50,745 nucleotides of DNA. It comes from Chlorobiota bacterium. GTDB taxonomy: Bacteria > Bacteroidota > Ignavibacteria > OLB7. The position numbers were made by a program, and so were the translations under genes. Shown here piece by piece: positions 29,000-34,796 of this stretch (its first letter is position 1; every line of letters starts with the position of its first letter). Below the pieces are notes generated by a model. That model ran no database searches and was not told the origin of the DNA. It saw nothing but the letters and a program-made list of their open reading frames with translations. The stretch is from the NCBI GenBank assembly GCA_016788565.1, contig JAEUSP010000059.1, positions 1 through 50,745 of the forward strand. The letters are read 5' to 3'.

Positions 29000-29794
29000 A
29001 TGAACAACATCAGCACCGGAACCTTCCCCCCCGACCAAATCCCTGTCATCAAAGATTGGAATTGGTGGAGCGATTTTTTGCAACGTGAGTACTACGGCAA
29101 CCCCGATGAAGAACCCGCATGGGAGAACGTTGCCCGCAGCATTGCCCGCCAACTGAACATCGGCCCAGGAACTGACGTGTTGGACCTTGGCTCCGGCTGC
29201 GGCGAAGTGGTGATGCGGCTTGCCATGCTGGGCGCGCGTGCGGTGGGGGTGGAACGCTCCGAGCCGTTGGTGATCCATTGCGCCCGCATTGCTGCCGGGC
29301 GTGGTGTGGTTGCCCAGTTCATTGCTGCCGATATGTTCAGCTTCCGGCCCGATGCTCCGTTTGATGTTGTCCTCTCGCTCAACACCAGTTTTGGCTACGG
29401 CAGCGATCAGCAGAACCGTGAGTTTATTCAGAACATCAGCCGCTGGCTGAAGCCGGGGGGGAAACTCTATTTGGACACGTTCACGGCGGACAACGCCGAA
29501 TCGTTCGGCACCTGGAGCGACCCGCTGGCCGGGGGAACGTTTGTGGTGGAGAACAGCTGGGACCCAGAGCAAAGCACCATGATTAGCCACCCCGCCTGGA
29601 TTGCCCCCGACCAAGAGACCGTCTATTATGCCGACCGCCCCGAAGTGGTGCGGCTGTATCTGCGCCAAGAGATTGAAGAGATGATGGTTTCTGGCGGACT
29701 GAAACCGCAGCGATTAACCCGCGCCATGGGTCGCCGTTTCCGCCAGGAAGACACCGACATGCACACCACGTGGATTGCTGAAAAAGAAGTGTGA
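29000..29794 (+). CDS. Class I SAM-dependent methyltransferase
   Basis: A 264-residue protein. Motif I, VLDLGSGCGE (60-69), and the acidic end of strand 2, GVERSE (82-87), bind S-adenosylmethionine. FDVVLSLNTSFGYG and the LKPGGKLYLDTF block complete a Rossmann-type methyltransferase. FGYG and the later QETVYYADRPEVVRLY resemble the UbiE/small-molecule group, but the substrate is not evident. It stands alone between a repeat element and the small-RNA region. No Shine-Dalgarno sequence is present. Confidence 0.88.
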   Translation: MNNISTGTFPPDQIPVIKDWNWWSDFLQREYYGNPDEEPAWENVARSIARQLNIGPGTDVLDLGSGCGEVVMRLAMLGARAVGVERSEPLVIHCARIAAGRGVVAQFIAADMFSFRPDAPFDVVLSLNTSFGYGSDQQNREFIQNISRWLKPGGKLYLDTFTADNAESFGTWSDPLAGGTFVVENSWDPEQSTMISHPAWIAPDQETVYYADRPEVVRLYLRQEIEEMMVSGGLKPQRLTRAMGRRFRQEDTDMHTTWIAEKEV

Positions 29795-29826: not shown

Positions 29827-29901
29827 AAAAAAAGTGGAGCCAGCCAAAAATAATGGCCGGCTCCGTTGGGCGAGCACGCCGTCACCCCATCGGCGTGTGT
29901 C
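29827..29901 (-). ncRNA. Candidate small structured RNA, copy A
   Basis: Read on the minus strand, a promoter (29907-29937) is followed by an RNA of about 75 nt. Hairpin 1 is a 7-bp stem CACGCCG/CGGCGTG (29875-29881 with 29891-29897) with loop ATGGGGTGA. A single-stranded CTCGCCC link leads to hairpin 2, a 10-bp stem with one mismatch (29836-29845 with 29855-29864) and a T-rich loop, directly followed by seven U (29827-29833) as an intrinsic terminator. Compared with copies B and C, stem bases change in pairs while the loop and link stay fixed. There is no convincing peptide: the overlapping frame would need a TTG start inside the promoter. The function is unknown. Confidence 0.55.
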
Positions 29902-29906
29902 GTGTG

Positions 29907-29937
29907 CAACAATACTTCGGCTTCGGGGAAGATGCAA
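29907..29937 (-). promoter_or_regulatory. Promoter of small RNA copy A
   Basis: On the minus strand TTG (29935-29937), exactly 20 nt, then TATTGTTG (29907-29914). This matches TTG-N20-TAnnTTTG with one mismatch. An A/T-rich AAAAACG and poly-T stretch lies upstream and is shared with copy B. Confidence 0.5.
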
Positions 29938-29990
29938 GCGTTTTTCTGCGGGGATGAAAAAAAATGTGGGTGGTAAAAATGATGGCTTCT

Positions 29991-30067
29991 GTCATTGGGT
30001 ATTAGTCAGTGGTCAGTTGCTGGCTTTGGCTTCATTTCACTCTTCCCATTTCACCCTTCACTCTTCG
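29991..30067 (+). repeat. Composite heptamer element, partial
   Basis: In one 7-nt register: gtcattg, ggtatta, gtcagtg, gtcagtt, gctggct, ttggctt, catttca, ctcttcc, catttca, cccttca, ctcttcg. It has the same word order as 34797-34873 and, inverted, as 27501-27681. Confidence 0.7.
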
Positions 30068-30165
30068 CTTCGGCTCCCTCTCCCACCCGACGAATGTGAG
30101 GCAAGCAGCACCTTCACCCGTTTGGGAGAGGGCGGGGGGTGAGGGGAGGCAGCGAAGGCGGCTCG

Positions 30166-30213
30166 GTTCGGTGGCTCACGCTCATACTTCGACGTAGCTC
30201 AGCATGAGCGGAG
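30166..30213 (-). repeat. REP-like palindromic element, copy 2 (inverted)
   Basis: The same 48-bp sequence as at 9938-9985 but in reverse orientation, with GTTCGGTGG first and CATGAGCGGAG last. It is the most diverged copy in the centre. Confidence 0.75.
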
Positions 30214-30299
30214 GACGGGGTTCGTGGATGAACGCAGGGGGATTTTTTGGAACTTATTCACTGTCATCATGCTGTTGGCCACGCTGACCTCGGCCTCCC

Positions 30300-30375
30300 A
30301 AAAAAAGTGAGGCCAGCCAAAAAAAATGGCCGGCCTCGGTTGGGCGAGCACGCCGTCACCCCATCGGCGTGTGTC
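30300..30375 (-). ncRNA. Candidate small structured RNA, copy B
   Basis: It has the same layout as copy A, 474 bp away. Hairpin 1 is identical (30349-30355 with 30365-30371). The terminator stem (30309-30318 with 30328-30337) reads GAGGCC where copy A has GGAGCC. The opposite arm changes in step from GGCTCC to GGCCTC, so pairing is preserved. Seven U follow (30300-30306). The unchanged part upstream, including the promoter, is identical to copy A for about 100 bp, so A and B arose by a recent duplication. Confidence 0.55.
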
Positions 30376-30380
30376 GTGTG

Positions 30381-30411
30381 CAACAATACTTCGGCTTCGG
30401 GGAAGATGCAA
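30381..30411 (-). promoter_or_regulatory. Promoter of small RNA copy B
   Basis: Minus strand TTG (30409-30411), 20 nt, TATTGTTG (30381-30388), identical to the copy A promoter. Confidence 0.5.
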
Positions 30412-30505
30412 GCGTTTTTCTGCGGGGTTGAAAAAAAATCTGACTGAAAAAAATCTGGATGAAAAAATTACCGCTGCACGTTGGCTTGCTATACTCGGCG
30501 CAAAT

Positions 30506-30630
30506 TGGTTTGCGAAACTCTACTCAGCTAGGTTCGCTATGGATTCGCTACGCAGGCCTACGGCTCCCGCTTTCGCCCCGACTGGTCGGGGTAAACAGGG
30601 AATGACAGTGATTGAGTTTTTCGCAAACCA
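30506..30630. mobile_element. Small inverted-repeat element between RNA copies B and C
   Basis: TGGTTTGCGAAACTC at 30506-30520 is matched by its inverted form at 30614-30630 with two extra bases. The inside carries CGCCCCGACTGGTCGGGGT followed by AATGAC, a fragment resembling the arm of the long MITE variant at 45303-45457. It looks like a nested, decayed non-autonomous element. Confidence 0.45.
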
Positions 30631-30653
30631 CTCTGTTTGGAGTATAATTGCAC

Positions 30654-30737
30654 AAAAAAAAGAGCTGGCCAAAAAAACGGCCAGCTCCGTGGGCGAGCAC
30701 ACCGTCACCCCAACGGTGTGTGTCGTGTGCAATGATA
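30654..30737 (-). ncRNA. Candidate small structured RNA, copy C (diverged)
   Basis: Hairpin 1 (30698-30704 with 30714-30720) reads CACACCG/CGGTGTG: relative to copies A and B one G-C pair has become A-T on both arms, a compensatory change. The loop differs by one base. The terminator stem (30662-30670 with 30679-30687) is a perfect 9 bp of different sequence, followed by eight U (30654-30661). The flanks CACGACAC and CTCGCCC are kept. A -7 element TATCATTG lies at 30730-30737, but no TTG lies 20 nt upstream, so expression is less certain. Confidence 0.5.
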
Positions 30738-30819
30738 CGGCGCGCAATCGCAGAGAAGTAGTAAATGGTTGTTCTTCCCGACAGTCGCGCAATGTGGCTT
30801 GCACTGTGGAATGCGCCTG

Positions 30820-33800
30820 TCACCCTTTTTTCCCCAGCAAGCACGATTCTTCAATCCAGTACGGGCAGTTGGGGCAATGCGGGGTGCGTAGCGGAAGCCG
30901 CCCGCGCGAAGTGTAGCTCAGGTCGTGGATGTCGCGGAATGCGGTGCGAAGCTCATCCTCGGCACGGTGCATCTCGAACCGGCTGAAGGTGAACTCCTGC
31001 GGCGCGTCGGGGTGCTGCGTGAACAGCACCACACAGCGGAACGTCCGCTGCTCGGGGCGGAGTAGCGATACCAGATAGGCGTACAGCCGAAGCTGCGGCA
31101 GATATTCATCAGCGCTTTTTTTCAGGGCATCGGCTGGCAGGTGTCGGGTCTTGTAATGAAGCACGGTGATCGCCCCGTCGCTTTCCACAATCAAACGATC
31201 CATCACCCCCAACACAAAATCTTGCTCGAACGGAATCCGAAGCTCATGCTCCAGATAGCTTTGGCTCCCTTCCGGCGCAATTGCTTGCCGCGCCTGCGGG
31301 CTGTTCAGTATCCGCCGGAAGGTGGCCACCAGCCGTTGGCGCATCCGCTCGGCTTGGTCGGTCGGGAGCGGTTCGGTGAGCAACACGTCATCGGCCACGC
31401 GCTCCACTGCGTCGCGTGTGTCGGTTGCGGTCTCCGGCTCCGCAGCGGTTTCCTCACCCTCCGCAATCGCCGCGATGGAGTCAAGGTGTTGGCCGTAGAT
31501 GGCTTCAAGGAACTCATCACCCACGCCATGCGTTTGGCTCTCCTCATCGCTGGTGGCTTCGTTCAGTTCGGCAAGCATTTCATCAACCCGCAGCGCGGCG
31601 CGGCGGAACAGCCGTGCAAAGGTGGTCCCGTCCTCGCTGTCGCGGGTGTTGGGATCGAACTCAGGATCGTAGGCCGCCGTCAAATCTTCTGGAATGCCAA
31701 GCCGAAATTTTAGATAATACTTTGTGGGGCATTGGGAATACACCAGAAACTGCGAGGCCGAATAAATATCCCCACGGGCGCGCGCCGGAAGCTCGCCAAT
31801 GTTCACTAAGTCGTTGCGGAAAATTTGGGCCGGGCGCGCCTCGGCTTCGTAGCGTGGTTGCTCCGGCAACTGATACCAAACCTTCACCTGCTGCCGCCAC
31901 TGCTCTGCCGATTTCCTTCTTCCATCCTCGTTCAAAAACCACAACGGTGATGCAATCTCCACAGTGCCATTGTCGGCGGGAAGCTCACCCAACGGAGCGG
32001 TGGCCCAGCTTAACATTGTCCCGCGCTTCATCTTCTCAACATTGCCGGAAAGGATCAGAAGGTCGCGGGCGCGGGTGGTGGCAACGTAGAACAATCGGGC
32101 TTCCTCGGCGCGTTCGCGTTCGCCGCTGCGCAGCCGCATCAGCAAGGTAATGGTTGGATTGTAGTTGTTGTGGTTGAACTTCCAATTCCATCCAAATCCC
32201 AAGTCACGGTCGAACAAAATCGCATCGGTTCGGCGCGGTGGCGAGTGGAGCGTGGGAAGGAAGACAATCGGGAACTCTAACCCCTTGGAGGCGTGCATGG
32301 TCATCAACAACACGGCATCGCGCCCGGTGTTGATCGGTGCTTCGGACTCCACCTCATCCCCTTCAATTTGGGAGCGGATCTGCTCAACAAAGTCGTACAA
32401 GTTGGTGAACCCGCGTTGCTCGAACGCTCGCGCTTGCTCCATCAGCTTGTCAATGTTTGCCATTGCCTGTTCGCCACGCTCGGTTCCGATAACCGCACCG
32501 CGCCAGCCTGTGTGCTCAATCACCCGCCGCATCAGCAGTGATATGGGGATTCGCCCGGCCATTGCGCGGTCTTCTTCAATCGTTTCAACCGCGCGGCGCA
32601 GCGATGAATGCGCGTCGGGATGTGCGGCCTGCTGCAGCGTCCGTTCCCACAACGAACGCCCGGCAACGGCGGTGCCGATTCGATAGAGGTCCAGATCGGA
32701 CACGCCAAAGTATGGCGAACGGAGCAGCCCCAACAAGGCAACATCGTTGTTGATGTTCAGCAGAACGCTTAGGTAGTTTACGATGTCGTAAATCTCCTGC
32801 GAGTCGTAAAACCGCGAGCTGCCGAAGTTCAGAAACGGAATGCCGTGGGTTCGGAAAGCGTCCTCCAATCCCTGAAAGCTGTTTCGCTTGCGGCACAGGA
32901 TGGCGATGTCGCCAAATCGCGCTGGGCGTGGTTGTTCCGGCTGGCCTTTTGCGGGCGGTTCCCACACCACTGGTTCGCCGGAAGTGACAAGCTGAAGAAT
33001 CCGCCGCGCAATCAGTTCCGCTTCGCTGACTATCTCGTTTTCTGGTTGGCCGCCCGCCGCCGCACCCCCCGCTTGCGGTTCTTGTGCGGTGATGCCGACG
33101 CTGGATTCCTGTTGGGTTGCGCTGTTCTCATCGTCCAAATCCTCTTCCGATTCCCGCGCCAGTATCACCTCCACCCCCCCAATGCCACCGGAGCGGCGGG
33201 CGCAGACTAACGGTTCGTACGGAACTCCAAAATTGAACATCCCGTCCGGGGTCATCACCGGCGCGCACGCAAGGTTGACGTAGGCGCAGTTGGAAGGGAG
33301 CAAACGGAAGGAGGCATCAAGCCGGATAATGCCAAGCCGTTCCTCGGGGGAAGTGTCGGGGATTTTTTCGTTGCGGTACTCCAGCGGCTGCGCCTCGCGT
33401 CGCTCCTGAATGTTTTGCTCAATGATGTCGCTGTCGGCGCGGTCGAACACCTCCACTTCGGCGTTGCGGAAACCGTAGATGGATTGCTTCTTATCGCCAA
33501 CAATGCACAGCCTTCCCAGGGCGTGCAACTGGCTAAGCAGGCGGTGCACCACGGTGTATTGCAAGGCGTTGGTGTCCTGAAATTCATCCACCATAATCGC
33601 CTTGAATCGGCTTGTGATTGCCTTGTGATCTTCCGTGTTCTGCAACGCAACCAGCAGCCGAAGCTGAAGGTCCTCGAAGTCCAAAGCGTTGTGGCGGGCT
33701 TTCCGTTGTTCGTAGTTGTGGACCGCAGCGGTGAAGATGTCCAGCAGCACCGCTGTGTCGTCCAGCAGTTGCGGGTGAAGCGTGGGGTCGGTGGGGGTTT

Positions 33801-34731
33801 CCAGCAATGGTTTTGCTTGCTCGATGGCGCGTTGAATCGGTTCGGCAAGGGGGTTCAGCGTTGCAACCTCATCGCGCGATAACCGGAAGATGCCGGTCCT
33901 TTTTGGTGTCCCTTCTTTGGTCAGCATCATCTTTTTTAGCTGGATGAACAGCTCAAGAATGTCCGGCAAGGACTCGGCTTCGCGTAGCTTCTGAAGCCCA
34001 GCAATCGCAGCGTCGGGGGTTTTCATGAACCCGATAAGTTCCTGGAATCCAGAAAGGACTTGGGGGGAACGAAGTGCTGGTTCCACCGCCCGCATGATTG
34101 CCGAATCCCACAACGCCAGCATCTCCTCCTTGCTGCGCGCCAACACCCCGTTGGATTGGCTAAAGGTGATCGGCTCGCGGTTCTTGAACATCATCTGGAC
34201 AATCTCTTCCAACAGCTCGCGGCTGATTCGGCGGGCAGTTTGGTAGGCGGCGGTGAGTTTCGCTGGGTCGTCATGCGGGCTTGATAGCGCGGTCTCGATG
34301 GCATCATCCAACGATTCTTGCTCCATCGCACGCCGTTCGTAGCCGTTAATCACCCGGAAGTTTGGCGGCGTGTCGGTCTCGATTGGGTACTCGTGCAGCA
34401 ACTTCGAACAGAAGCCATGGATGGTGGAAACCATTGCCGAGGTGAACCCTTCGCGGGCTTTTTTCAGCTTCTCCCAGTTGATTTTGTGGGATTCATCGCT
34501 TAGGCGGTGCTCAAGCTCTTCGGCAATGCGGGTGCGTAGCTCGCTGGCGGCTTTTTCGGTGAAGGTGATTGCCGCCATTTCGGCAGGCCTGATCCCCATG
34601 TATTCCACGATGTCGCAGTATCGGCTAACCAGCACACGGGTTTTGCCCGATCCGGCATTTGCGGTGATGGAAAGGTGGCGCGTTGCGTCGTGCGCCTTCA
34701 GTTGGTCAAGCGTAAAGGTGATGTCGGCCAT
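30820..34731 (-). CDS. AddA-like UvrD/RecB-family helicase-nuclease
   Basis: About 1,303 residues from the ATG at 34731 (MADITFTLDQLKAHD); an in-frame start at 34767 adds 12 unlikely residues. Superfamily 1 helicase motifs are complete: Walker A TANAGSGKTR (23-32), Ia AITFTEKAASELRTRI, II VDEFQDTNA, III VGDKKQSIYGFRNA, V TMHASKGLEF, VI FYVATTRARDLLIL. The C-terminal 230 residues form a RecB/Cas4-type nuclease with an iron-sulfur Cys set: a single Cys in SASQFLVYSQCP, then CPNC and a last C in WIEESCL. The expected GxxDR...DYKT motif reads GVMDR (D1178) then H1192-Y-K1194, so one metal-binding Asp is replaced by His. It would resect double-strand breaks. No AddB partner is in the window. Confidence 0.88.
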   Translation of the reverse strand: MADITFTLDQLKAHDATRHLSITANAGSGKTRVLVSRYCDIVEYMGIRPAEMAAITFTEKAASELRTRIAEELEHRLSDESHKINWEKLKKAREGFTSAMVSTIHGFCSKLLHEYPIETDTPPNFRVINGYERRAMEQESLDDAIETALSSPHDDPAKLTAAYQTARRISRELLEEIVQMMFKNREPITFSQSNGVLARSKEEMLALWDSAIMRAVEPALRSPQVLSGFQELIGFMKTPDAAIAGLQKLREAESLPDILELFIQLKKMMLTKEGTPKRTGIFRLSRDEVATLNPLAEPIQRAIEQAKPLLETPTDPTLHPQLLDDTAVLLDIFTAAVHNYEQRKARHNALDFEDLQLRLLVALQNTEDHKAITSRFKAIMVDEFQDTNALQYTVVHRLLSQLHALGRLCIVGDKKQSIYGFRNAEVEVFDRADSDIIEQNIQERREAQPLEYRNEKIPDTSPEERLGIIRLDASFRLLPSNCAYVNLACAPVMTPDGMFNFGVPYEPLVCARRSGGIGGVEVILARESEEDLDDENSATQQESSVGITAQEPQAGGAAAGGQPENEIVSEAELIARRILQLVTSGEPVVWEPPAKGQPEQPRPARFGDIAILCRKRNSFQGLEDAFRTHGIPFLNFGSSRFYDSQEIYDIVNYLSVLLNINNDVALLGLLRSPYFGVSDLDLYRIGTAVAGRSLWERTLQQAAHPDAHSSLRRAVETIEEDRAMAGRIPISLLMRRVIEHTGWRGAVIGTERGEQAMANIDKLMEQARAFEQRGFTNLYDFVEQIRSQIEGDEVESEAPINTGRDAVLLMTMHASKGLEFPIVFLPTLHSPPRRTDAILFDRDLGFGWNWKFNHNNYNPTITLLMRLRSGERERAEEARLFYVATTRARDLLILSGNVEKMKRGTMLSWATAPLGELPADNGTVEIASPLWFLNEDGRRKSAEQWRQQVKVWYQLPEQPRYEAEARPAQIFRNDLVNIGELPARARGDIYSASQFLVYSQCPTKYYLKFRLGIPEDLTAAYDPEFDPNTRDSEDGTTFARLFRRAALRVDEMLAELNEATSDEESQTHGVGDEFLEAIYGQHLDSIAAIAEGEETAAEPETATDTRDAVERVADDVLLTEPLPTDQAERMRQRLVATFRRILNSPQARQAIAPEGSQSYLEHELRIPFEQDFVLGVMDRLIVESDGAITVLHYKTRHLPADALKKSADEYLPQLRLYAYLVSLLRPEQRTFRCVVLFTQHPDAPQEFTFSRFEMHRAEDELRTAFRDIHDLSYTSRGRLPLRTPHCPNCPYWIEESCLLGKKG

Positions 34732-34796
34732 GAGGCAAAAGTAGGAAGTTCTTGGTGGGCGGTGCAAGCAGCAGCAGCAAGAAACTCAGCGAGGGA

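Follow-up and report, generated by a model that had tools for sequence, protein, structure and literature searches.

What are the three similar short units that lie side by side between a methyltransferase gene (29000-29794, +) and a UvrD/AddA-like helicase-nuclease gene (30820-34767, -) in the 50,745-nt stretch of DNA analysed here (the window)? Sequence alignment across the window recovered three paralogous units (A, B and C), all on the minus strand and all where the original prediction had placed them, with the consensus GTAT(TG/CA)TTGCACACGACACAC(G/A)CCG(A/T)TGGGGTGACGG(C/T)GTGCTCGCCCA in the three copies, followed by an 11-bp hairpin and a U tract. Their common layout comprises a -7 box, a first hairpin (hairpin 1) with the loop (A/T)TGGGGTGA, a CTCGCCC link and an intrinsic terminator (Table 1). 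The loop and link that had been predicted were present in every unit, as were the change of a hairpin-1 G-C pair in A and B to A-U in C and the three different, still paired second stems, which were called as intrinsic terminators. We propose that A, B and C are probably three sibling genes for trans-acting sRNAs, with RNAs of ~75 nt in which the 5′ loop and link would be functional, while the sequence gives good support for a three-copy small-RNA family with putative promoters and with terminators. The family is new in sequence and ordinary in its kind of regulator.

Table 1 Positions of the three candidate sRNA units and their predicted control elements in the window, with counterparts in the sister species.
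Feature	Position	Strand	Details	Counterpart	Basis
Candidate sRNA unit A	29827..29915	-	-7 box TATTGTTG, 5′ hairpin loop ATGGGGTGA, CTCGCCC link, terminator	G001:C98:40180-40268 (orthologue)	alignment, terminator scan
Intrinsic terminator hairpin, unit A	29836..29864	-	followed by U tract		terminator scan
Putative promoter region, unit A	29916..29964	-	AGAAAAACGCTTGCATCTTCCCC..., -33-like TTG	kept in sister species	
Candidate sRNA unit B	30300..30389	-	layout as unit A; terminator stem GAGGCCGGCCA/TGGCTGGCCTC	G001:C98:39547-39635 (matching position)	alignment
Intrinsic terminator hairpin, unit B	30309..30337	-			terminator scan
Putative promoter region, unit B	30390..30438	-	near-identical to unit A promoter region		
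Candidate sRNA unit C	30653..30738	-	-7 box TATCATTG, loop TTGGGGTGA; hairpin-1 A-U pair replaces G-C; terminator stem differs from A/B	G001:C98:39351-39439 (orthologue)	alignment
Intrinsic terminator hairpin, unit C	30661..30688	-			terminator scan
Conserved upstream block, unit C	30739..30780	-	AAGAACAACCATTTACTACTTCTCTGCG; ~40 nt past helicase stop codon		

Conservation was assessed in the only further species of the genus searched, a sister species (G001, contig JADZEY010000098.1) where a model of the unit (R1) identified three strong copies (E 4e-33 to 1e-28), as many paralogous copies with a shared conserved core as in the genome of the window (G000). The order helicase, C, B, A, methyltransferase and the orientation were the same in both species, with the same AddA/UvrD-like helicase and methyltransferase as flanking genes, and because this order is kept in a second species the layout of the units exceeds chance. 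Between the species, the 49-nt 5′ part (GTAT to CTCGCCCA) showed zero differences in all three units. The terminator halves were 97, 85 and 74% identical (A, B and C, respectively), making them the fastest-changing part of the units, and downstream of B and C the next 100 nt did not align. The protein encoded by the adjoining helicase gene was 86.6% identical and 26.8% of its 560 four-fold sites differed; with sites changing at this rate, the probability of finding 49 identical positions by chance would be ~2e-7 per type (0.732^49). The same five 5′-part positions set C-type units apart from A/B-type units in both species: two lie in the -7 box, one is the loop base and two form a single stem pair. 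This indicates that the types are older than the species split. A and B shared species-specific bases, GAAGCC in both copies of the window genome and AACCC in both copies of the sister species, and are thus kept alike within each genome, such that they do not count as independent observations, which are few with two species only. Judged from sequence, conservation between species is strong evidence for the family and should replace the argument from covariation; it would also reveal the part under selection, with the 5′ hairpin and link frozen and the terminator drifting.

Covariation had been the initial argument for selection on RNA, and this argument is weaker than had been stated. Among the six copies from the two species, 99.2% of cells paired, and the terminator stems diverge between species yet stay paired. 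Both partners had changed in four pairs; one of these belongs to hairpin 1 and the other three to the terminator, where covariation is a weak argument because any paired stem serves a terminator. The change in hairpin 1 was a single paralogue-level event common to both species, and instead of the further compensatory changes called for in homologues, the sister species added conservation and none that was new in hairpin 1. Folding z-scores of -4.5 to -5.3 for whole units are owed to the terminator, since hairpin 1 and the link alone gave z of about -0.5 to -0.7 and were no more stable than shuffled sequence; in unit C, an alternative fold (GCACAC/GUGUGC) also competes. Backed by one compensated pair, the hairpin-1 structure is plausible, not proven.

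Upstream of units A and B we found TTG-N20-TATTGTTG, the promoter that had been predicted there, with upstream blocks kept in both species, while unit C has TATCATTG and no TTG at that spacing. The reference promoter consensus is TAnnTTTG (PMC9723704, PMC7366714). A block of ~40-50 nt upstream of the units was conserved between both species, as expected of a promoter, and A and B were near-identical over ~60 nt upstream, which suggests recent duplication or upkeep by gene conversion. At their 3′ ends all three units have a GC-rich hairpin and U tract, and the terminator calls were confined to the minus strand. All three units are also preceded by a similar block, AGAA(A/C)AAC..TT(G/T)....CTTC (29930-29960, 30405-30435 and 30755-30785, minus strand), the spacer being ~4 nt longer in unit C; this block is possibly a shared regulator site.

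We infer that a separate promoter of the Bacteroidota sigma-A type precedes each unit and would drive transcription of a ~75-nt RNA starting just upstream of hairpin 1 and ending at the intrinsic terminator. The functional module would be the invariant 5′ part, consisting of a 7-bp stem, closed by CGA/UCG, that carries the loop (A/U)UGGGGUGA, and of the unpaired CGCCCAAC after it, and would most likely base-pair with target mRNAs in trans near start codons. No Hfq match was found in either genome, and two RRM proteins are encoded in each, such that the RNAs would act in a cell without recognisable Hfq and with two RRM-type RNA-binding proteins, which may or may not have a role. If this proposal is true, an uncultured Bacteroidota-like lineage with no recognisable Hfq has a family of sibling sRNAs conserved in sequence, and the units offer a compact test case for small-RNA use by Hfq-less bacteria having RRM proteins.

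The assignment of the pairing region to the 5′ hairpin loop and unpaired link follows the analogy with FopS of Bacteroides thetaiotaomicron, a set of 14 paralogues of ~65-70 nt marked by a conserved 5′ seed (R1') and a 41-nt motif, which repress SusC-type mRNAs via pairing near start codons, are bound by the RRM protein RbpB and are conserved within Bacteroidaceae (PMC11697453). Both FopS and the units comprise several paralogous RNAs of ~65-75 nt with sigma-A-type promoters of their own (predicted for the units), a conserved 5′ part and a variable 3′ part, in an Hfq-less cell with RRM proteins. However, FopS has 14 genome copies, whereas the units occur three in a row in one genus and are GC-rich. 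The units resemble FopS in layout, with membership not claimed and FopS compared by description only. Sibling sRNAs also include LhrC1-5 of Listeria and the NmsR/NgncR pairs of Neisseria, which like the units are near-identical RNAs, some in tandem, with intrinsic terminators and conserved single-stranded stretches, but belong to other phyla and often work with Hfq or other partners; we know of no sequence common to them and the units.

The original prediction knew of no named family with this layout, and no Rfam 15 family scored above its gathering cut-off, nor did lax thresholds give anything credible. Weak matches of unit C to suhB/mmgR (RF00519; 19.9 vs. cut-off 41) and SorX (RF02784; 15.8 vs. 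46.6), which share with it a series of hairpins ending in a terminator, were rejected as scores at chance level, and no sibling sRNA family was found described for this lineage in the literature searched. The covariance-model search of related genomes that had been suggested returned the three sister-species copies and no member outside the genus. Beyond the locus, the genome of the window held no further copy and terminator-only matches to R1, and those R1 matches outside the six copies that were inspected, in this and related genomes, were terminators only. A model of the 5′ part (R2) gave nothing outside the genus better than E 0.015 across 391 genomes of the class and in the family, with at most 15 candidates per genome scored in the class search, such that weak relatives may be missed. 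Pattern scanning of 84,980 species genomes returned 29 stretches, with the full stem formed only in the sister species, while four pattern matches in viral contigs were attributed to chance, plasmids and phages gave nothing of note, and BLAST against 395 genomes of the phylum gave fragments of 20-30 nt only. The unit was absent at the helicase 3′ end in the same-family genomes G002-G004. Outside the genus there were only terminator-like or chance matches, and the family is apparently genus-restricted within a search range from which distant relatives could escape, since the pattern scan required exact matches at 18 bases and the genome searches evaluated a subset of candidates.

Pairing with mRNAs was weighed against action through protein, in which the G-rich hairpin loop of the sRNAs would be a decoy for an RNA-binding protein. 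The hairpin loop appears to be the most constrained part and recurs in several predicted transcripts, RRM proteins are encoded, and sites complementary to the link were not enriched: the 10-nt seed complement of the link GTTGGGCGAG had 16 hits in the window genome compared to 27 for the reversed control, and 10 compared to 20 in the sister species (self sites included in both), with no non-self sites common to the two genomes. We nevertheless consider a decoy rather unlikely, as the loop is without the known CsrA motif (A-N-GGA), each RNA has a single motif compared to many in CsrB-type decoys, and the unpaired link varies no more than the loop does. Loop (GGGGUGA) and link (CUCGCCC), both invariant, also show mutual complementarity of six base pairs (GGGUGA/UCGCCC), which alone is not evidence because 4-9% of random loops and links reach such complementarity. 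Within one molecule the link would be too near the stem for such pairing given pseudoknot geometry, so siblings could pair with each other instead; that they form loop-link dimers setting the level of free RNA, as a self-titrating sRNA family, has a slim chance of being correct.

Readings without sRNA function in trans were also considered. The units lie between convergent genes, each ends in a strong terminator and unit C starts ~80 nt beyond the stop codon of the helicase gene, as would be seen if they were terminators separating the helicase and methyltransferase genes, or cis-acting leaders or attenuators. This is very unlikely, since no coding gene lies downstream of any unit on its strand, a terminator needs no conserved promoter block and no 49-nt 5′ part free of changes, a series of three would be unusual, and the terminators are what changes fastest. 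Local spread of a small mobile or repeat element, with conservation reflecting copying, could be suggested by the upstream sequence and species-specific bases that A and B share, a sign of concerted change, and by the true repeats in the same interval. Yet three copies per genome are confined to a single locus with none elsewhere, no terminal inverted repeats were seen around the unit, and C differs from A/B at the same places in both species, such that copying within genomes cannot explain identity between species; we regard this origin as highly improbable. Finally, the loop reads AUG GGG UGA in A and B and UUG GGG UGA in C, i.e. start, Gly, stop, but short protein-coding genes or a leader peptide have next to no probability, because every difference of C from A/B within the longer frame that opens at TTG is nonsynonymous, and the linkers differ in length by single bases. 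A conserved peptide frame, which the original prediction had set against an RNA function, was looked for and not found. The minimal start-Gly-stop frame (29871-29900, 30345-30375 and 30694-30724, minus strand) occurs in two alleles only.

Apart from the units, one protein encoded in the window has a borderline type IX sorting domain, which together with the RRM proteins makes it likely that the lineage is Bacteroidota-like, and the spacers contain repeats. A 157-bp MITE-like element at 30490-30646, which starts 6 nt beyond unit C (ending at 30653), has terminal inverted repeats TATACTC...GAGTATA with 28-nt arms that are 79% complementary, and at least 6 further full copies of 90-96% identity in the window genome, with none in the 12-kb stretch around the units in the sister species. 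A second interspersed repeat (29991-30230) has dozens of genome copies, mostly at 80-91% identity, and similar sequence fills the B-A spacer of the sister species.
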